A stretch of DNA of 64,000 bases from Gammaproteobacteria bacterium (GTDB taxonomy: Bacteria; Pseudomonadota; Gammaproteobacteria; Steroidobacterales; GCA-2729495): the NCBI GenBank assembly GCA_014337915.1, contig QUBU01000004.1, forward strand, positions 1 to 64,000, written 5' to 3'. The notes beneath the pieces were generated by a model. The model ran no database searches. It saw only the letters and a program-made list of their open reading frames with translations, and was not told the origin of the DNA. The position numbers and the translations under genes were made by a program. The stretch's first letter is position 1; each line of letters begins with the position of its first letter. Of the stretch, positions 14,682 through 22,770 are shown piece after piece.

Positions 14682-16148
14682 ATGCCGAACACCGAGTATT
14701 ACAACGACCACGTCGTGCGCCTGTTCCTGCTGGCCTCGGCGGTGTGGGGCATCGTCGGCATGCTGATCGGCATGTACGCGGCGGCGGAACTGGCCTGGCC
14801 GGGACTGAACCTCGACATCCCCTGGATGACCTTCAGCCGCGTGCGCCCGGACCACACCTTCGGCGTCATCTTCGCCTTCGGCGGCTCGGCGCTGATGGGC
14901 ACCTGCTACTACGTCGTGCAGCGCACCGGCCATACCCGCCTGGCCTGGGGCAAGCTCGCGGAACTCACCTTCTGGGGCTGGCAGCTCGCCTGCATCCTGT
15001 CGATGGCGACGCTGCCCTTCGGCATCACCCAGAACAAGGAATACGCCGAGCCGGAGTGGTTCATCGACATCCTGATCGCCGTGGTCTGGGTGAGCTTCGG
15101 CGCCGTGTTCTTCGCCACGCTGGCGCGCCGGCGCATCCGCCACATCTACGTGGCCAACTGGTACTACGGCGCCTTCATCATCGCCGTCGGCCTGCTGCAC
15201 ATCGTCAACAACATCGCGGTGCCAGTCAGCCTGACCAAGTCATATCCGGTCTACTCCGGGGTCGTCGATGCGATGGTGCAGTGGTGGTACGGGCACAATG
15301 CCGTGGCGTTTTTTCTCACCGCCGGCTTCCTCGGCATGATGTACTACTTCGTGCCACGGCAGGCACAGCAGCCGCTGTGGAGCTATCGCTTCTCGATCGT
15401 CAACTTCTGGGCCCTGATCTCGATGTACATGTGGGCGGGCTCGCACCACCTCATGTACACCGCCCTGCCCGACTGGGTGCAGTCGGTGGGCATGGCGTTC
15501 TCGCTGGTGCTGCTGATGCCCAGCTGGGGCTCCGCGGCCAACGGCCTGTTCACCTTCAACGGCTCCTGGCACCGGCTGCGGGACGACCCGGCCGCGAAGT
15601 TCATGGTCATTGCCCTGGTGTTCTACGCCGCATCGACCTTCGAGGGCTCGATGATGGCCATCAAGACCGTCAACTCGCTGTCGCATTACACCGACTGGAC
15701 CGTGGCCCATGTGCATTCCGGTTCCCTGGGCTGGGTGGCGATGATCACCATCGGCTCGCTGTATGCCATGGCACCGCGCGCACTCGGCCGCCCGGCCATG
15801 CATTCGCGCAGGGGGATGGAGCTGCACTTCTGGCTGCATGTCTCCGGCACGCTGTTCTACGTCGTTGCGATGTGGGTGGCCGGCGTTACTGAAGGCATTA
15901 TGTGGCGCGCGACCGGGCCGGACGGTGCGCTCAGCTATCCTTTCATCGACAGCCTGCTGGCGATCCGGCCGCTGTACATCGCGCGCTGGTTCGGCGGCTT
16001 CCTGATCTGGCTCGGCATGTGGGTGATGGCCTGGAACCTCTGGTACACGGCCGCCGACGCCCGCAAGAAGATCATCCTGCCGATCCCGGTGCCGATCCCG
16101 GAGCCGGATTCGCACCAGACGCCGGCGCCGCTGCCGGCCGCAACCTGA
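14682..16148 (+). CDS. ccoN: cbb3 cytochrome oxidase subunit I (CcoN)
   Basis: A 488-residue, 12-helix catalytic subunit of the high-affinity cbb3 oxygen reductase in the inner membrane. Haem and copper ligands are visible: RPDHTFGVIFAFGG (low-spin haem His), WWYGHNAVAFFLTAGFLGMMYYFVP (CuB His), WAGSHHLMYTALPDW (two CuB His) and TDWTVAHVHSGSLGWV (haem b3 and haem b His). The ATG at 14682 follows CGGGAGCC. First gene of ccoNOQP; the next gene begins 10 bases after the stop. The segment SIVNFWAL has Asn at a site where I recall His in many CcoN proteins; this is from memory and not a metal ligand to my knowledge. Expression is expected under low oxygen. Confidence 0.96.
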   Translation: MPNTEYYNDHVVRLFLLASAVWGIVGMLIGMYAAAELAWPGLNLDIPWMTFSRVRPDHTFGVIFAFGGSALMGTCYYVVQRTGHTRLAWGKLAELTFWGWQLACILSMATLPFGITQNKEYAEPEWFIDILIAVVWVSFGAVFFATLARRRIRHIYVANWYYGAFIIAVGLLHIVNNIAVPVSLTKSYPVYSGVVDAMVQWWYGHNAVAFFLTAGFLGMMYYFVPRQAQQPLWSYRFSIVNFWALISMYMWAGSHHLMYTALPDWVQSVGMAFSLVLLMPSWGSAANGLFTFNGSWHRLRDDPAAKFMVIALVFYAASTFEGSMMAIKTVNSLSHYTDWTVAHVHSGSLGWVAMITIGSLYAMAPRALGRPAMHSRRGMELHFWLHVSGTLFYVVAMWVAGVTEGIMWRATGPDGALSYPFIDSLLAIRPLYIARWFGGFLIWLGMWVMAWNLWYTAADARKKIILPIPVPIPEPDSHQTPAPLPAAT

Positions 16149-16158
16149 GGTCCGGGCC

Positions 16159-16794
16159 GTGGCATACCGTCATTTCGAGTTCATCGAGAAGCACGCCTGG
16201 CTGCTCGGCATCCTCACTGCTGTCATGGTGTCGATCGGCGGCCTCGCCGAGATCACGCCGCTGTTCATCATGGCGCAGGAGGTCAAGCCGCCGGAACACG
16301 TCCGGCCGTACGATCCGCTGCGCCTCGCCGGCCGCGACATCTACGTCCGCGAAGGCTGCTACCTCTGTCACTCGCAGATGATCCGTGCGCTGCGCTTCGA
16401 GACGCAGCGCTACGGCAGCTTCTCCACCGCCGATGAGTCGGTCTACGACCGGCCCTTCCAGTGGGGCTCCAAGCGCACCGGCCCCGACCTCGCACGCGCC
16501 GGCGGCAAGTACTCCGACGAGTGGCAGCACGCCCACCTGATGGATCCGCGTAGCGTGGTGCCGGAGTCGAACATGCCGGGCTATCCCTGGCTGGCCAGGG
16601 CGCCGATCGACGCTGATGACATCGCGGCCCGCATGCGCGTGCTGCGCCGCCTCGGTGATCCGTATACCGATGCCGACATCGCCTCCGCTGCCGCGGCGCT
16701 CGAGGGCAAGACGGAGATGGATGCGCTGATTGCCTACCTGCAGGGGCTCGGCATCGCCAATGAACCGCAGGCCACGGCCGGGGAAACGCCATGA
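16159..16794 (+). CDS. ccoO: cbb3 oxidase mono-haem subunit (CcoO)
   Basis: A 211-residue membrane-anchored cytochrome c subunit. One N-terminal helix (about 13-38) is followed by the haem c site CYLCH near residue 72 and the axial Met in ESNMPGYPW. It passes electrons from CcoP to CcoN. The start is GTG 16159. The last four bases overlap ccoQ (ATGA), which shows tight coupling in the operon. Confidence 0.96.
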   Translation: MAYRHFEFIEKHAWLLGILTAVMVSIGGLAEITPLFIMAQEVKPPEHVRPYDPLRLAGRDIYVREGCYLCHSQMIRALRFETQRYGSFSTADESVYDRPFQWGSKRTGPDLARAGGKYSDEWQHAHLMDPRSVVPESNMPGYPWLARAPIDADDIAARMRVLRRLGDPYTDADIASAAAALEGKTEMDALIAYLQGLGIANEPQATAGETP

Positions 16795-16985
16795 GCCCGG
16801 CCTGGGGACACGCCACCGGAGTGCTGATCCTGCTGATGATGGCGGCATTCATTGGCATCTGGGTCTGGGCCTGGCTGCCTTACCACAAGCGGAACTTCAG
16901 CTGGCTGGCGCGCCTGCCGATGGAGGACCAGGGCGCAGCGCCGGATGATTCGATTCCGGCCACCGACGAGGAGCAACGCCGATGA
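16791..16985 (+). CDS. ccoQ: cbb3 oxidase small subunit (CcoQ)
   Basis: A 64-residue protein with one transmembrane helix (about 9-27: TGVLILLMMAAFIGIWVWAW) followed by the typical YHKRNFSWLARLPMED. CcoQ stabilises the cbb3 complex, helping CcoP associate with CcoNO. The ATG at 16791 overlaps ccoO, and the end overlaps ccoP by four bases. Confidence 0.92.
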   Translation: MSPAWGHATGVLILLMMAAFIGIWVWAWLPYHKRNFSWLARLPMEDQGAAPDDSIPATDEEQRR

Positions 16986-17893
16986 GCAGCGGCTGGGCAT
17001 GGTGGGTGATCGGCCTGATCGTATTCAACATGGGCCTGACGTTCTGCCTGTTCATCTGGGCGCCAATCGCCAGGGTGCCGACCTTGCCGGACGGCACCAC
17101 CGGCCATGTCTGGGCGCATGGCGCCCTGCGCGAAGGCATGCATCGCCTGCCGGGGTGGTGGATCGCGCTGTCGCTGGGAATGTTCGTCACCGCCTTCGCC
17201 TACTTCCTGCTGTACCCGGGCTTCGGCAATTTCAGGGGCATGCTCGGCTGGACCTCGCAGGGCGAGCTCGCGACCGCCGTGGCCGCCAATGACGCCGTGC
17301 TCGAACCCACATTGCAGCGCCTGGCCGCGATGAGTGTCGAGCAGGCCGCCGCCGACCCGCAGGCGCAGCAGCTCGGCGCGCGCCTGTTCGTCGACAACTG
17401 CGCGGCCTGCCACGGCCGCGATGGCCGCGGCAATCCGCTGCTCGGCGCGCCGGACCTGACCGATGGCGACTGGGTCTATGGCGGTACCGCCGCAGACATT
17501 ACCAACTCGATCCGCAACGGCCGTACCGGCGTCATGCCGCAGTGGAAGGCGCTCGGCGACGCGACGGTGAAGAACCTGACGCAGTATGTGCTTGGCCTGT
17601 CGGGCCAGACGCACGACGCGCAGATGGCTGCGGCCGGCGAGACCGTGTTCCAGACCACCTGCGTCGCCTGCCATGGGCCGGAAGGCAAGGGCAATCCGCT
17701 CATCGGCGCCCCGAACCTCACGGATCGCGCCTCGGTGTACGGCAGCAGCGCGGCCGCCATCGAGGCGAGCATCGGCAACGGCCGCCAGGGCCATATGCCG
17801 GCATGGAGCCCACGCCTGTCGGACAGCGATACCCACCTGCTGGCCGCCTATGTCCATCACCTCGCGAACCGCAGCGACGCCGCTGGCCGCTGA
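16982..17893 (+). CDS. ccoP: cbb3 oxidase di-haem subunit (CcoP)
   Basis: A 303-residue subunit with two N-terminal membrane helices (about 5-27 and 57-80) and two cytochrome c domains whose haem sites are CAACH (about residue 140) and CVACH (about 223). Axial Met residues are in TGVMPQW and GHMPAW. It accepts electrons from periplasmic cytochromes or the bc1 complex. The four subunit genes overlap by 4 bases from ccoO to ccoP. The usual maturation genes ccoGHIS do not follow. Confidence 0.96.
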   Translation: MSSGWAWWVIGLIVFNMGLTFCLFIWAPIARVPTLPDGTTGHVWAHGALREGMHRLPGWWIALSLGMFVTAFAYFLLYPGFGNFRGMLGWTSQGELATAVAANDAVLEPTLQRLAAMSVEQAAADPQAQQLGARLFVDNCAACHGRDGRGNPLLGAPDLTDGDWVYGGTAADITNSIRNGRTGVMPQWKALGDATVKNLTQYVLGLSGQTHDAQMAAAGETVFQTTCVACHGPEGKGNPLIGAPNLTDRASVYGSSAAAIEASIGNGRQGHMPAWSPRLSDSDTHLLAAYVHHLANRSDAAGR

Positions 17894-18074: not shown

Positions 18075-18187
18075 CCAACCGGCTGGTGCCTGCCAGCGGC
18101 GGCCTGCGCGGATCGCGTCCGACTGCAGCATGACTCGTCGCTTCCACCGGACGTACGATGTCCGGTGATGCAGCGCACGAGGCCATC

Positions 18188-19375
18188 ATGAAGCACAGCG
18201 TCAGCCACCTGATCATCGGCGCCGGCGTCGCCGGTGAATCTGCAGCGCAGGCCATCCGCAGCGTCGATGCCGATGCCAGCATCGCCATGCTGGGCGATGA
18301 AGCACATCCACCCTACGACCGCCCGCCACTCAGCAAGGCGCTGTGGAAGGACGGCAGGGAAGATGACATCTGGCGCCCCATCGGCAAGGCGCATATCGAC
18401 CTGCAGCTCGGGCGGCGTGCGCTGCGGATCGATCGCGCCGCGCGCCTGGTGCAGGACAATGCGGGTGATTCCTGGGAATACGAGCAGCTGCTGCTGGCCA
18501 CCGGCGGCAGGCCGCGCCAGCTGTCGTTCGGCGACGACTTCATCTATTACCGCCGCTATGCGGACTACCAGCACCTGCGACAGCGGGTGAGGCCCGGTGC
18601 GCGCATCGCGGTGATCGGTGGCGGTTTCATCGGCAGCGAGGTGGCCGCGGCGATGGCGCTCAACGGTTGCCGGACCAGCCTGCTGTTCCCGGGACCGGCG
18701 ATCTGCTCCCGGGTGTTTCCCGCGGCGCTGGCCGCGGCCGTCACCGCTGCCTATCGCGAGCGGGATGTCGATGTCCGCAGCGGCATCACCGTGACCGGTG
18801 CCCGCAGCGATGCCGGCGGCAGCGAGCTGCTGCTGTCCGACGGCAGCCGACTGCGGGTCGATGCGGTGGTCGCCGGGCTCGGCATCGAGCCCAACGTACA
18901 GCTGGCCCAGGAAGCCGGATTGCAACTCGACCTGGGCGGCATCGTCGTCGACGACCAGCTGCGGACGAACGATGCCGCCATCCACGCCGCCGGGGATGTT
19001 GCCACGTTTCCGGCGCCGGCGCTCAGCCGCAGGCTGCGCGTGGAGCACGAAGATGCGGCCCTGCAGATGGGCCGCCACGCCGGCCTGTGCATGGCCGGCC
19101 AGGATGCCCCGTACCGGCAGCTGCCGTTCTTCTACGCCGACCTGTTCGACCTCGGCTACGAAGCGGTCGGGATCGTCGACTCGCGCCTGCAGGCTATCGA
19201 GCAATGGGTCACGCCCTACCGCGAGGGTGTGGTCTATTACCTCGACTCCGGTCGCGTCCGCGGCGTCCTGCTCTGGAACACCTGGGGCCAGGTCGATGCC
19301 GCCCGGGCACTGATCGCCGAGCCCGGGCCATTCGACGCGGGCAGTGTCCGCGGCCGACTGCCGGTGAAGGCCTGA
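18188..19375 (+). CDS. AIF/ferredoxin-reductase-like FAD-NAD(P) oxidoreductase
   Basis: A 395-residue two-dinucleotide-binding flavoprotein. HLIIGAGVAGESAAQAIR binds FAD, PPYDRPPLSKALW is typical of apoptosis-inducing-factor-like and rubredoxin/ferredoxin reductases, IAVIGGGFIGSEVAAAMA binds NAD(P)H, and IHAAGDVATFP is the second FAD motif. The C-terminus (about 300-395) is the AIF-type alpha/beta domain. No signal peptide is evident. The ATG at 18188 has ACGAGG upstream; an alternative ATG is at 18158. Its place between ccoNOQP and the NO-type cluster suggests a redox or detoxifying role, but the electron acceptor is unknown. Confidence 0.88.
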   Translation: MKHSVSHLIIGAGVAGESAAQAIRSVDADASIAMLGDEAHPPYDRPPLSKALWKDGREDDIWRPIGKAHIDLQLGRRALRIDRAARLVQDNAGDSWEYEQLLLATGGRPRQLSFGDDFIYYRRYADYQHLRQRVRPGARIAVIGGGFIGSEVAAAMALNGCRTSLLFPGPAICSRVFPAALAAAVTAAYRERDVDVRSGITVTGARSDAGGSELLLSDGSRLRVDAVVAGLGIEPNVQLAQEAGLQLDLGGIVVDDQLRTNDAAIHAAGDVATFPAPALSRRLRVEHEDAALQMGRHAGLCMAGQDAPYRQLPFFYADLFDLGYEAVGIVDSRLQAIEQWVTPYREGVVYYLDSGRVRGVLLWNTWGQVDAARALIAEPGPFDAGSVRGRLPVKA

Positions 19376-19435: not shown

Positions 19436-19458
19436 AAGATGTATTGACAATCGATCTT
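19436..19458 (+). promoter_or_regulatory. NsrR-type 23-nt inverted repeat (NO-responsive operator)
   Basis: The left arm AAGATGTATTG and right arm CAATCGATCTT are separated by one A, making a 23-base imperfect palindrome with 9 of 11 paired positions. This has the length and bases of the NsrR consensus (AAGATGYATTT-N-AAATRCATCTT); by my count 18 of 22 positions agree. It overlaps a perfect TTGACA hexamer at 19444-19449, a fitting place for a repressor. It lies 45 bases before the DUF2249 gene. NsrR is an Fe-S repressor released by nitric oxide. Confidence 0.72.
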
Positions 19459-19502
19459 TAAGGGAGGAAGCTGCGGTTGCTGGAACAACGAGGAAGACAG
19501 CC

Positions 19503-19754
19503 ATGCCCGACAGCCAACCCGCAGCCATCCCCGAAGTCGACATCCGCAGCCTCATCCCCATGCAGCGCCACGCCCGTATCTTCGAACTGGTCGGCAACCT
19601 GCAGCCGGGCGGTGCGTTTGTCTTCGTCAACGACCACGATCCGAAGCCGCTGTACTACCAGCTCGAGGCCGAGCACCCGAAGCAGTTCTCCTGGACTTAC
19701 CTGGAGTCCGGCCCGGTTGCCTGGCGGGTGAAGATCGGCCGCCTGCCGCAATAG
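19503..19754 (+). CDS. DUF2249 domain protein
   Basis: An 83-residue single-domain DUF2249 protein (TusA-like fold by family knowledge). Motifs: VDIRSLIPMQRHARIFELVGNLQPGGAFVFVNDHDPKPLYYQLEAEHP and FSWTYLESGPVAWRVKIGR. DUF2249 proteins are repeatedly found with hemerythrins, NnrS and NO-responsive regulators. It is the first gene after the NsrR-type operator. GAGGAAG lies about 8 bases before the ATG. Confidence 0.9.
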   Translation: MPDSQPAAIPEVDIRSLIPMQRHARIFELVGNLQPGGAFVFVNDHDPKPLYYQLEAEHPKQFSWTYLESGPVAWRVKIGRLPQ

Positions 19755-19818
19755 GCAGTCCTGCAGCCACCGGCGGCATTCCCGACCGCAGAGCCGCCGG
19801 TGGCCGGCGGAGCCCGGC

Positions 19819-21180
19819 ATGCTTGCCATCCCAGGTGCCACACTTTCACGCTGGACCCTCGCCTACTTCGCCGCAGCCGTTGCGTTCCTGCTGCTGGGCG
19901 AGGCGCTCATGGTCCTCGGCTTCGGCTATCCGATTGCCGGACTGCGTGCACCCCAGACCCTGATCCTCGTCCACTGCATCACCATCGGCTGGCTGAGCCT
20001 GCTGATGTGCGGTGCGCTGTTCCAGTTCGTACCGGTGCTCGTGGCCGGACCGATCTACAGCAACTCGCTGCCGCTGCCCGCGCTGCTGCTGATCCTCGGC
20101 GGACTGGCGCTGCTCATCGCCAGCTTCCTGCAGCTGGCAGGCGTCCTGCCGCCGCTGCCGGCGGTATTCCTCGGCGCCAGCCTGCTGCTCGGTGCTGGCT
20201 TCCTGCTCGTGCTCTGGACGCTCGGGCGCACCCTGGCGGCGGCCTGGCCGCTGAACCTGCCCGCGCAGTTCGTCAGCATCGGGCTGGCGAGCGTTGCCGC
20301 CACCGTCAGCTACGGCATCATCTTCACCCTTGGCTTCGGCGGCTACAGCCGTTCGCCGCTGCTGCTCGGCATCCAGGCACAGGGCCTGCCGCTGCATGTC
20401 AGCGCGGGGCTCGGCGGCTGGCTGACGTTCACCGCCATCGGCGTCAGCCACCGCCTGCTTTCCATGTTCATGCTGTCGCCGGAGCTCGATGGCCCGACGA
20501 CCCGCTGGACCTTCCGCCTCGGCACGCTCGCCCTCGCGATCCTGGTTGGTGCCGGAACGATCGTCGTGGCCGCCGGCGGCGGCCCCGGGACAGTGCTGGT
20601 CGTCGCCGGCATCACAGGCCTCGCCTGCCTTGCGCTCTACGGACGTGACGTCCTGCGGCTCTATCGCCAGCGCGTCCGCCCGGCGATCGAGCTCAACAGC
20701 CGCATGGCGGCGGTCGCGCTCGCACACCTGGCTTTTGCCACGCTGCTGCTCTCTGCCTGTGCCGCGGCCGGCGTTGTCCGGCAGTACATCGGTCCGCTGC
20801 TGTTCCTCATCGCCTTCGGCTGGCTGTCGGGGCTCGGGCTCGCCAAGCTCTACAAGATCGTGGCCTTCGTGACCTGGCTCGAGTGCTACGGCCCGGTCCT
20901 CGGCAAGGCACCCACGCCGCGCGTGCAGGATCTCGTGGTGGAACCGCGTGCCGCACGGTGGTTCTGGCTGTACTTCGCCGCGGTCGATGTCGCCAGCCTC
21001 TGCCTGCTGCTGGAGGCAGTGCCGGTGTTCCGCGTCGCGGCGGCCGCCATGTTGCTGGCCAGCGCCGGCATTGCCCTGGAACTCGTCCGAACCCGGCGCC
21101 TCGCCAATGTCGGCGAGGAGCTGCGCCTGCCTGCGGGGGCGCAGCAGCCCCGCCTGCTGTTCACCTTCGTCGGCAACTGA
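19819..21180 (+). CDS. CcoN-like polytopic membrane protein of unknown function
   Basis: A 453-residue protein with about 12 predicted membrane helices. The segments ILVHCITIGWLSLLMCGALFQFVPVL and PLHVSAGLGGWLTFTAIGVSHRLLSMF place His residues next to Gly-Trp helices, reminiscent of haem-copper oxidase subunit I and its distant relatives, but the HH CuB pair is not visible. It may be a haem-binding membrane protein or reductase linked to NO. It lies between two DUF2249 genes behind an NsrR-type operator. GGCGGAG lies 7 bases before ATG 19819. The oxidase relation is an inference from motif shape. Confidence 0.65.
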   Translation: MLAIPGATLSRWTLAYFAAAVAFLLLGEALMVLGFGYPIAGLRAPQTLILVHCITIGWLSLLMCGALFQFVPVLVAGPIYSNSLPLPALLLILGGLALLIASFLQLAGVLPPLPAVFLGASLLLGAGFLLVLWTLGRTLAAAWPLNLPAQFVSIGLASVAATVSYGIIFTLGFGGYSRSPLLLGIQAQGLPLHVSAGLGGWLTFTAIGVSHRLLSMFMLSPELDGPTTRWTFRLGTLALAILVGAGTIVVAAGGGPGTVLVVAGITGLACLALYGRDVLRLYRQRVRPAIELNSRMAAVALAHLAFATLLLSACAAAGVVRQYIGPLLFLIAFGWLSGLGLAKLYKIVAFVTWLECYGPVLGKAPTPRVQDLVVEPRAARWFWLYFAAVDVASLCLLLEAVPVFRVAAAAMLLASAGIALELVRTRRLANVGEELRLPAGAQQPRLLFTFVGN

Positions 21181-21192
21181 AAGGAGACCGCC

Positions 21193-21723
21193 ATGACCGG
21201 TTTCGTCGAACTCGATGTCCGTCCCATCCTGCGCGCCGGTGGCGAGCCATTCGGCAAGATCATGGAAACCGTGAAGAACCTGCCGCAGGGCCAGGGCCTG
21301 CGGCTCATCGCCAGCTTCAAGCCGACGCCGCTGCTGCAGGTCCTCGGCTCGCAGGGCTTCACCCACCAGGCCCGGGAGATCGGTGGCGGCGACTGGCAGG
21401 TCGACTTCACGCCCGGCAGTGCTGCCGGCAAGGCGCCGCAGGCGGCTCCAGCCCGCCCGGCCACGGAGGGCAACTGGCCCGCGCCGATACAGGAGCTGGA
21501 CAATCGCCTGCTTGATCCACCCGAGCCGATGGTGCGGGTACTCGCAGCCACGGAATCCATGGCCCCCGGCGAGGTGCTGGCGGCACTGCTGTGCCGCGAG
21601 CCGGTATTCCTCTTCAAGGAACTCGCCAAGCGCGGCCACGCCTGGCGCGGGGCCTTCGAGCCGGATGGCAAGACCTACCGGCTGCTGGTCCGCATCGGCG
21701 GTACGCCCGGAGAGGCCGCATGA
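21193..21723 (+). CDS. Tandem DUF2249 protein
   Basis: A 176-residue protein with two DUF2249 domains: residues about 5-75 (FVELDVRPILRAGGEPFGKIMETVKNLPQGQGLRLIASFKPTPLLQVLGSQGF) and about 98-170 (ELDNRLLDPPEPMVRVLAATESM ... PVFLFKELAKRGHAWRG ... YRLLVRIGG). They are joined by an Ala/Pro-rich linker. Function unknown; the family is linked to NO response and Fe-S metabolism by gene context. An AAGGAGA ribosome site precedes the start, and the end overlaps the DUF59 gene by four bases. Confidence 0.88.
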   Translation: MTGFVELDVRPILRAGGEPFGKIMETVKNLPQGQGLRLIASFKPTPLLQVLGSQGFTHQAREIGGGDWQVDFTPGSAAGKAPQAAPARPATEGNWPAPIQELDNRLLDPPEPMVRVLAATESMAPGEVLAALLCREPVFLFKELAKRGHAWRGAFEPDGKTYRLLVRIGGTPGEAA

Positions 21724-22046
21724 ACACGGCAGCCGCTGGACTTCCGGCCGAGCGCATCCGGGAGGCCCTGCGCCTGGTGATCGACCCGGAGCTCGGCTAC
21801 AACATCGTCGACCTCGGCCTGGTCTATGACGTCGCGGTGCAGGGAACGGGTGACGCCGTCATCACCATGACGACCACGACCCGCGGTTGCCCGGCGACCG
21901 ATTACCTGCGCATGGGTGCCCGTGACGCCGCATTCTCCGTCGATGGCATCGACTCCGCGGAGATCATCCTCACCTACGACCCGCCGTGGAAACCGAAGAT
22001 GATGTCACCCGAGGCCAAGGCGCATTTCCGCATCCGCGATGAGTGA
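21720..22046 (+). CDS. DUF59/MIP18-type Fe-S assembly factor
   Basis: A 108-residue MIP18/PaaD-like protein: IREALRLVIDPELGYNIVDLGLVYDVAV, TMTTTTRGCPATDYL (conserved Cys57) and EIILTYDPPWKPKMMSPEAK. These are SufT/PaaD-family signatures; members assist Fe-S cluster assembly or transfer. The gene is coupled to the DUF2249 gene by an ATGA overlap. In this cluster it may help repair NO-damaged Fe-S proteins, which is an inference from context. Confidence 0.9.
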   Translation: MNTAAAGLPAERIREALRLVIDPELGYNIVDLGLVYDVAVQGTGDAVITMTTTTRGCPATDYLRMGARDAAFSVDGIDSAEIILTYDPPWKPKMMSPEAKAHFRIRDE

Positions 22047-22260
22047 GCCCGGAAGCATGCCGCCGGCACTGCCAGGCGCGAGCCGCACCACGCTCGACGA
22101 CCTGCTGCTGGCGAGCCTCAGCGCTCTGGCTGCCGCTGGAGAGGTCGAGCAGGCCTGCCGCCTCGCCGGGCAGGCCTGTGCGCTCCACCGGAGCAGCGAT
22201 GCCCGTGCCTGGAACCGCTTCAACAGCCTGCTGCACCGGCTCAGTCGCCAGACGGAGTAG
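22039..22260 (+). CDS. Small helical protein of the DUF2249/DUF59 cluster
   Basis: A 73-residue protein that starts 8 bases inside the DUF59 gene. It has no signal or membrane segment and is mostly helical (TTLDDLLLASLSALAAAGEVEQACRLAGQACALH, then ARAWNRFNSLLHRLS), resembling a single TPR-like helix pair. I do not recognise a named family. The overlap and codon use match its neighbours, so it is probably a true last gene of this run. Confidence 0.65.
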   Translation: MSEPGSMPPALPGASRTTLDDLLLASLSALAAAGEVEQACRLAGQACALHRSSDARAWNRFNSLLHRLSRQTE

Positions 22261-22302: not shown

Positions 22303-22770
22303 ATGCAACAGCGCATCGATTACAAGTTCGCCTCACCCGAGGCATTCAAGGCCATGCTCCACACCGAGCACCAGGTCCACAGGAGCGGCCTGGAGGAGTC
22401 GCTGCTGGAGCTGGTGAAGTCCCGCGCCTCGCAGCTCAATGGCTGTGCCTGGTGCCTGGACATGCATACCAAGGATGCGCGAGCGCGCGGTGAAACCGAG
22501 CAGCGCCTGTACCTGCTGCCGGTCTGGCGCGATGCCGCCTGCTACAGCGATCGCGAGCGTGCGGCCCTGGCCTGGACGGAGGCGGTCACGCTCATCGCCA
22601 CCGAGGAAGTGACCGATGCCGTCTACGCGGAGGCACGGCGCCACTTCGACGAGAAGGCGCTGGTCGACCTGACATTGGCGATCATCGCGATCAATGGCTG
22701 GAACCGCATGAACGTGGCCTTCCGCACCCCGGTCGGCGATTACGTGAGCCCGCACGCGGCGGCGCGTTGA
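22303..22770 (+). CDS. AhpD-like carboxymuconolactone decarboxylase family protein
   Basis: A 155-residue protein with the AhpD fold: LLELVKSRASQLNGCAWCLDMHTKDARARGE carries the redox CxxC (CAWC) and the distal His. WTEAVTLIATEEVTDAVY and LTLAIIAINGWNRMNVAFRTP are typical of this subgroup. It probably acts as a peroxidase-type or thiol-dependent antioxidant enzyme. It starts at ATG 22303 with AGGAG upstream, 42 bases after the cluster's small gene, so it may belong to the NO-linked transcription unit. Confidence 0.88.
   Translation: MQQRIDYKFASPEAFKAMLHTEHQVHRSGLEESLLELVKSRASQLNGCAWCLDMHTKDARARGETEQRLYLLPVWRDAACYSDRERAALAWTEAVTLIATEEVTDAVYAEARRHFDEKALVDLTLAIIAINGWNRMNVAFRTPVGDYVSPHAAAR

Follow-up and report, generated by a model that had tools for sequence, protein, structure and literature searches.

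A predicted NsrR-type operator on the promoter of a gene cluster encoding DUF2249, heme-copper-oxidase-fold and DUF59 proteins in a gammaproteobacterium

Genes of COG4309 have been predicted to be under the control of NsrR in three betaproteobacteria, often together with norB, according to the available excerpts of the study by Rodionov et al. (2005, PMC1274295). Here we describe a run of five genes (19503-22260) preceded by a predicted NsrR-type operator (19436-19458) in a 64,000-nucleotide stretch of DNA (the window; contig QUBU01000004.1) from a gammaproteobacterium of the order Steroidobacterales. We take COG4309 to be equivalent to DUF2249, the domain encoded by two of these genes. Compared with the NsrR regulon of 2005, the motif and the repressor family are the same, whereas the differences here lie in the five-gene set and in the position of the operator on the -35 box, the set not being found described in the excerpts (PMC1274295). 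The initial annotation had called the system poorly described; this applies to the operon but not to the DUF2249 family, which, as COG4309, was predicted in 2005 to belong to the NsrR regulon (excerpts of PMC1274295). No description of the operon as a whole was found in the mainly open literature, and one may exist in print; expression data for the cluster in S. meliloti or Bradyrhizobium were not seen in the literature searched. The operon itself seems uncharacterised, and its kind of regulation is already known.

The 453-residue membrane protein of the cluster (19819-21180), with 12 transmembrane helices, resembles the HCO-homology (HCOH) proteins that Pei et al. reportedly presented in 2014 (Protein Sci) as having 12 helices, an oxidase fold, two conserved histidines that could bind a single heme, and a denitrification context; it may belong to one of their families. 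It has in common with NnrS (PF05940) that both are membrane proteins of nitric oxide (NO)-response regulons, but lacks Pfam or profile similarity to it, and its identification as NnrS was rejected (no PF05940 match; hhalign, 0.1%). The DUF59 protein shares PF01883 and an invariant cysteine with SufT/PaaD-type proteins but lies under the NCBIfam equivalog cut-offs. The DUF2249 proteins share their domains with TusA and with DrpA of Thermus, a DUF2249 protein linked to nitrate respiration (excerpts of PMC6282519), but have no CPxP cysteine and have other partners.

The operator, AAGATGTATTGACAATCGATCTT on the plus strand, is a 23-base palindrome whose two arms are complementary at 9 of 11 positions. 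Against AAGATGYATTTNAAATRCATCTT, which we take to be the long form of the NsrR consensus, 18 of 22 defined positions agree, as the initial annotation had proposed in general terms. Against the published core gATGyAT-N5-ATrCATc, agreement is 12 of 14, counted by eye. Palindrome quality by itself is not rare, with 57 23-mers in the window pairing at 9 or more of 11 positions. Allowing up to 3 mismatches to the strict long consensus gave no match in the window or genome, the operator having 4. The relaxed pattern AAGATGNATN5ATNNATCTT, in turn, was matched without mismatch only by this site in the 2.72-megabase genome; allowing 3 mismatches gave six further places, and none for a backward-pattern control. 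Thus, the palindrome is common but the NsrR motif is uncommon. A consensus learned from related loci also had the operator as its sole match in the window, with 0 expected from 100 shuffles. The prediction of an NsrR-type operator at 19436-19458 is sound, and far more strongly backed than the initial annotation could have known.

We examined the conservation of this site in related genomes. Relatives of the membrane protein were found in 11 of 99 genomes (own included). The operator stood before the DUF2249 gene in all seven clusters at least 54% identical to that of the window (own included), at 15 (one cluster) to 18/22 and with the invariant core TATTGACAAT. In ten genomes of the same genus, the cluster, NsrR and NnrS occurred together in the same eight and were absent from the same two; two of the eight clusters are a distant form, and one of the two lacking genomes is 73% complete. 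Those two genomes, G001 and G008, kept a SUF-type Rrf2 gene. In two same-genus genomes (L020 and L021), a distant form of the membrane protein is encoded between two DUF2249-like genes, the second of which has a 15-16/22 NsrR-like site near its start.

A species-genome scan yielded 238 relatives of the membrane protein. Wider-locus counts refer to the best 80 of these, and operator counts to the 78 with enough upstream DNA; L099 (no upstream DNA) and L097 (206 bases) were left out of the 78, although L097 is counted among the 45 sites of related loci described below. The search for sites ran along the gene strand with a minimum of 16/22, a cut-off set by the analyst, the start of the first gene was fixed 84 codons ahead of its stop, and neighbouring genes were identified by single-query phmmer searches. 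The loci are not independent, because L029 and L030 look near-identical and L024, L026 and L066 share the genus of the window. The double DUF2249 gene was present in 79/80 loci, the DUF59 gene in 77/80 and a homologue of the 73-residue protein in 52/80, and the first DUF2249 gene lay directly ahead of the membrane-protein gene in 52/78. The operator was detected in 44/78 loci, from alpha-, beta- and gammaproteobacteria, and as a perfect palindrome, AAGATGTATTGACAATACATCTT, in L058 and L071. Separately, five loci (L036, L073, L089, L093 and L096) have 18/22 NsrR-like palindromes without the full TTGACA centre; these lie 750-870 bases ahead of the membrane-protein gene and not at the first gene of the cluster.

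The position of the operator is also that of a promoter element. The hexamer TTGACA lies inside it at 19444-19449, an overlap that the initial annotation had seen correctly, and is present in 41 of 45 sites of related loci; 44 of these 45 have A as their central base when read on the gene strand. A weak -10 hexamer, GAAGCT (19467-19472), follows 17 base pairs behind TTGACA, with A at its position 2 in 42 and T at its position 6 in 38 of 45 aligned promoters (the window and 44 loci). Since these two bases are kept at that spacing, the operator and the -35 box coincide, which would be a natural position for a repressor. The outer arms are symmetric and kept well beyond TTGACA, with the AA and TT ends in 45/45. 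The operator stands 44 bases before the first ATG of the five-gene run. Its conservation among loci and its promoter position bear out the operator first proposed. Upstream, a gene for a reductase dependent on flavin adenine dinucleotide (FAD) runs in the same direction (18158-19375) and stops 60 bases ahead of the operator; therefore, read-through could make repression leaky.

Loci without the operator had a different upstream element. A TTG-N8-CAA box, of the kind used by NnrR/FNR activators, was found in 24/34 operator-less loci, compared with 4/44 operator loci and 5.2% of shuffles (Fisher, 1.6e-8, with rows that are not independent). This spacing is that of the NnrR box (excerpts of PMC1274295). 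Core denitrification or NO genes (nir, nor, nos, nnrS) flanked the cluster in 20/34 operator-less and 4/44 operator loci, and on Sinorhizobium, Mesorhizobium and Aminobacter plasmids the cluster lies amid nor, nir, nos, nap or nnrS genes. Judged from these promoters, the operon looks like a case of regulator swap, with NsrR sites in some loci and NnrR/FNR-type boxes in others.

The initial annotation had made its prediction dependent on an NsrR or Rrf2 homologue in the genome, and an NsrR-type gene was found. Two Rrf2 genes exceeded the Pfam cut-off, on contigs C24 and C34; that on C34 is the SUF regulator. The C24 protein (PF02082, E 6.8e-37) is encoded on the same strand as, and behind, a quinol NO reductase gene (norB), whose product scored 781 bits against a solved NorB and was assigned no family in an NCBIfam scan. 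Among solved proteins, the C24 protein is closest to Streptomyces NsrR, and it carries Asp8 and cysteines 91, 99 and 105. Asp8 and three cysteines are the iron-sulfur (Fe-S) cluster ligands of NsrR (excerpts of PMC5411485), and they are present in 27/27 Rrf2 proteins, namely this one and 26 near the cluster in other loci. All four cluster-neighbouring Rrf2 proteins scanned scored best on the NCBI NsrR model, below its cut-off. In an Rrf2 tree, the C24 protein grouped with cluster-neighbouring proteins and with E. coli NsrR and was separated from SUF and IscR (97/94); the tree has 46 rows, leaves out L136, L128 and 11 of 25 loci, and is unsure at its deep forks (long branches).

Ahead of the norB gene of this genome there is itself a 17/22 site, which is among the six places matching the relaxed pattern with 3 mismatches; it stands 44 bases before the ATG, the same distance as in the window. 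A nearly identical site stands before norB in G006, and 17/22 sites stand before nsrR in G005, G029 and G084. The contig pieces from G003 and G005 have no norB ahead of nsrR, and in G002 the promoter lies beyond the contig. All four DUF2249 domains of the genome are at the two NsrR-linked places. Of the genomes that have the operator but no NsrR gene close by, 22/22 searched had an NsrR/RirA-type match with a score of at least 186 bits; this search covered 47 loci in 46 genomes (L086 left out), with a profile that does not separate NsrR from RirA. NsrR-type genes lay near the cluster in 25/78 loci. In L144 (C24:16500-21500) and L001, a hemerythrin-like gene, quinol norB and nsrR are co-directional. 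Behind nsrR, tail-to-tail, is a further DUF2249 gene with a CCSGGSCG tail. No NirK above cut-off was found in the genome (NirS was not searched).

Several observations weigh against NO-responsive control through NsrR. The C24 protein scored 130.1 on the NCBI NsrR model (cut-off 182) and 135.4 on RirA (cut-off 193), and its clade in the tree includes RirA-like proteins, with E. coli NsrR at the base, leaving NsrR and RirA unseparated. Because of both results, we named it NsrR-type on its residues and context; the NCBI equivalog cut-off is a naming rule and not a biochemical feature. The norB or nsrR promoters of G003, G004, G007 and G009 had at best weak sites (13-14/22), G093 reached 12/22 with no site at an nsrR or norB promoter, and the centre of the norB/nsrR sites differs from ATTGACAAT of the window. 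G084 has the operator, but the NsrR-like protein encoded there is only 47% identical and branches elsewhere in the tree. The operator was absent from the 40%-identical cluster L018. Of the operator-less genomes, 15/24 also reached 186 bits with an NsrR/RirA-type match, a cut chosen after the scores were seen and narrowly missed by one operator-less genome at 184.9, and 6/34 operator-less loci had an NsrR-type gene near the cluster. The -10 hexamer of the window fits TATAAT at 2/6 positions, and a consensus scan detected no sigma-70 promoter at the operator. Near the two NnrS genes of the genome no NsrR-type site of at least 16/22 was present (best 15/22, on contig C14), nor was any found near the NnrS genes of 15 NnrS loci. 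The second NnrS gene lies with two more COX1-family genes close together at C14:4958-14153, where no site of at least 16/22 occurs.

Some of these points would fit a palindrome serving another regulator (SUF, RirA-type or an unrelated repressor) and responding to iron or Fe-S status instead of NO: the slightly higher RirA score, the unseparated tree, the SUF-type Rrf2 gene also encoded in the genome, and the operator centre unlike the norB site. We regard this as unlikely. Rrf2 genes with Asp8 and three cysteines lie in the flanks of 26/80 loci, the neighbours of the cluster are NO and denitrification genes, and G001 and G008 retain SUF-type Rrf2 in the absence of both cluster and NsrR. Moreover, four RirA-like second copies from alphaproteobacteria have Asn8 and sit on a branch of their own.

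We infer from these comparisons that NsrR binds the operator and that the operon responds to NO. Under this proposal, the C24 NsrR-type protein, an Fe-S Rrf2 repressor, would bind 19436-19458 and cover the -35 box, shutting off the operon at 19503-22260, possibly as far as 22770. With its Fe-S cluster nitrosylated by nitric oxide, the repressor would come off, and the operon and norB-nsrR would be switched on at the same time. Regulation of the operon by NO via an NsrR-type protein is, on the sequence comparisons, very probable. For the whole explanation, comprising NsrR-type repression, release by NO and an accessory role of the products, we estimate a probability of roughly 75%.

The five genes are all on the plus strand and tightly spaced, and presumably form one operon. 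The first encodes an 83-residue COG4309-type DUF2249 protein (19503-19754; PF10006, E 1.1e-28), in which H23 and H45 are invariant in 54/54 sequences and NDHDPKPL is kept. Behind the membrane-protein gene follows a 176-residue double DUF2249/TusA-fold protein (21193-21723; PF10006 and PF01206). Its identity as a TusA sulfurtransferase was rejected, the position of the CPxP cysteine being taken by Pro109 in 80/80 sequences (TusA aligned by eye). A search for solved relatives of the DUF2249 proteins gave no significant match. The fourth gene encodes a 108-residue FeS_assembly_P (DUF59) protein (21720-22046; PF01883, E 2.7e-17, 63.3 bits against a cut-off of 23.5), with Cys57 invariant in 78/78; its matches to four NCBIfam equivalogs all fall under the respective cut-offs. 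The fifth product (22039-22260), of 73 residues, has faint tetratricopeptide-repeat similarity (PF13428, E 0.003, under the cut-off). A carboxymuconolactone decarboxylase/AhpD-type gene (22303-22770, plus strand; PF02627) starts 42 base pairs past this run, with no terminator-like site found in between, and may be a sixth member; it occurs in the flanks of 8/80 loci, and in L023 and L027 directly upstream of the operator instead. PHROGs matches gave nothing usable.

The membrane protein matches no Pfam family. Its AlphaFold2 model, built from 61 sequences, reached a mean predicted local distance difference test (pLDDT) score of 92.7 and replaced an earlier model (7 sequences, pLDDT 71). It has the 12-helix oxidase fold, and its best Foldseek matches (ranks 1-9) were CcoN of cbb3 and NorB, at template-modelling scores of 0.55-0.66. 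COX1 matches at E of 1 or below were obtained for 5/61 family members (best 3.2e-4) and not for the window protein itself. The only invariant histidines are H52 and H193, in 81/81 sequences, whereas catalytic heme-copper subunits have six conserved histidine ligands. Hence, the label "CcoN-like" of the initial annotation is right for the fold but not for the function: with just two invariant histidines, the protein is probably no oxidase or NO reductase. H52 and H193 may each open a stretch with weak resemblance to the CcoN helix-10 motif. We infer a single-heme membrane protein without a copper site and with Fe-S-type partners; such a protein would be unable to reduce oxygen or NO in the usual chemical way.

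An NO reductase or NO-tolerant oxidase working with the neighbouring cbb3 genes (ccoNOP, 14682-17893, upstream of the cluster) is accordingly a poor candidate for the cluster, and less likely than control by another regulator. The fold match to CcoN and NorB would suit it, as would cbb3 genes in the flanks of 9/80 loci and quinol norB near the cluster in 4. Besides the histidine count, however, the window's ccoN has neither an NsrR-type site (best 13/22) nor an FNR-type TTG-N8-CAA box ahead of it, and both types of control of cbb3 were rejected. No cbb3 genes adjoin the cluster in the three same-genus loci with 6 kilobases upstream (L024, L026 and L066), and the genome has a separate quinol NO reductase. 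The joint NO-response system with cbb3 that had been suggested at first is thus not upheld. Highly improbable, finally, is a strong -35 region alone with a chance palindrome: TTGACA, its spacer and the kept -10 bases are clear and 9/11 palindromes are frequent in the window, but the arms are conserved well outside TTGACA, perfect palindromes exist, and most loci lacking the operator have an FNR-type box instead.

With regulation by an NsrR-type protein preferred, the products might tentatively be regarded as accessory and not catalytic, acting to protect, repair or mature heme and Fe-S enzymes damaged by NO, such as NO reductase and oxidase. The membrane protein would hold one heme (H52, H193) together with two TusA-fold DUF2249 proteins and the Fe-S-type DUF59 protein. 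On the other side of the balance, this functional proposal rests on fold, residues and neighbouring genes, and the profile comparison of the membrane protein with CcoN was weak (2%).

The predicted operator ties to nitric oxide an operon that is widespread, as judged by a species-genome scan that gave 238 relatives of the membrane protein. DUF2249, a two-histidine oxidase-fold protein and a DUF59 variant thereby gain a common physiological setting, and the apparent exchange of NsrR for NnrR/FNR-type boxes would be a regulator swap on a single operon. Speculatively, the cluster could be a widespread and so far unrecognised proteobacterial NO-tolerance module, in which the single-heme, oxidase-fold membrane protein with its DUF2249 and DUF59 partners would sense or scavenge NO at the membrane and repair or mature heme and Fe-S enzymes damaged by NO, and whose promoter would have been re-wired between repression by NsrR and activation by NnrR/FNR.

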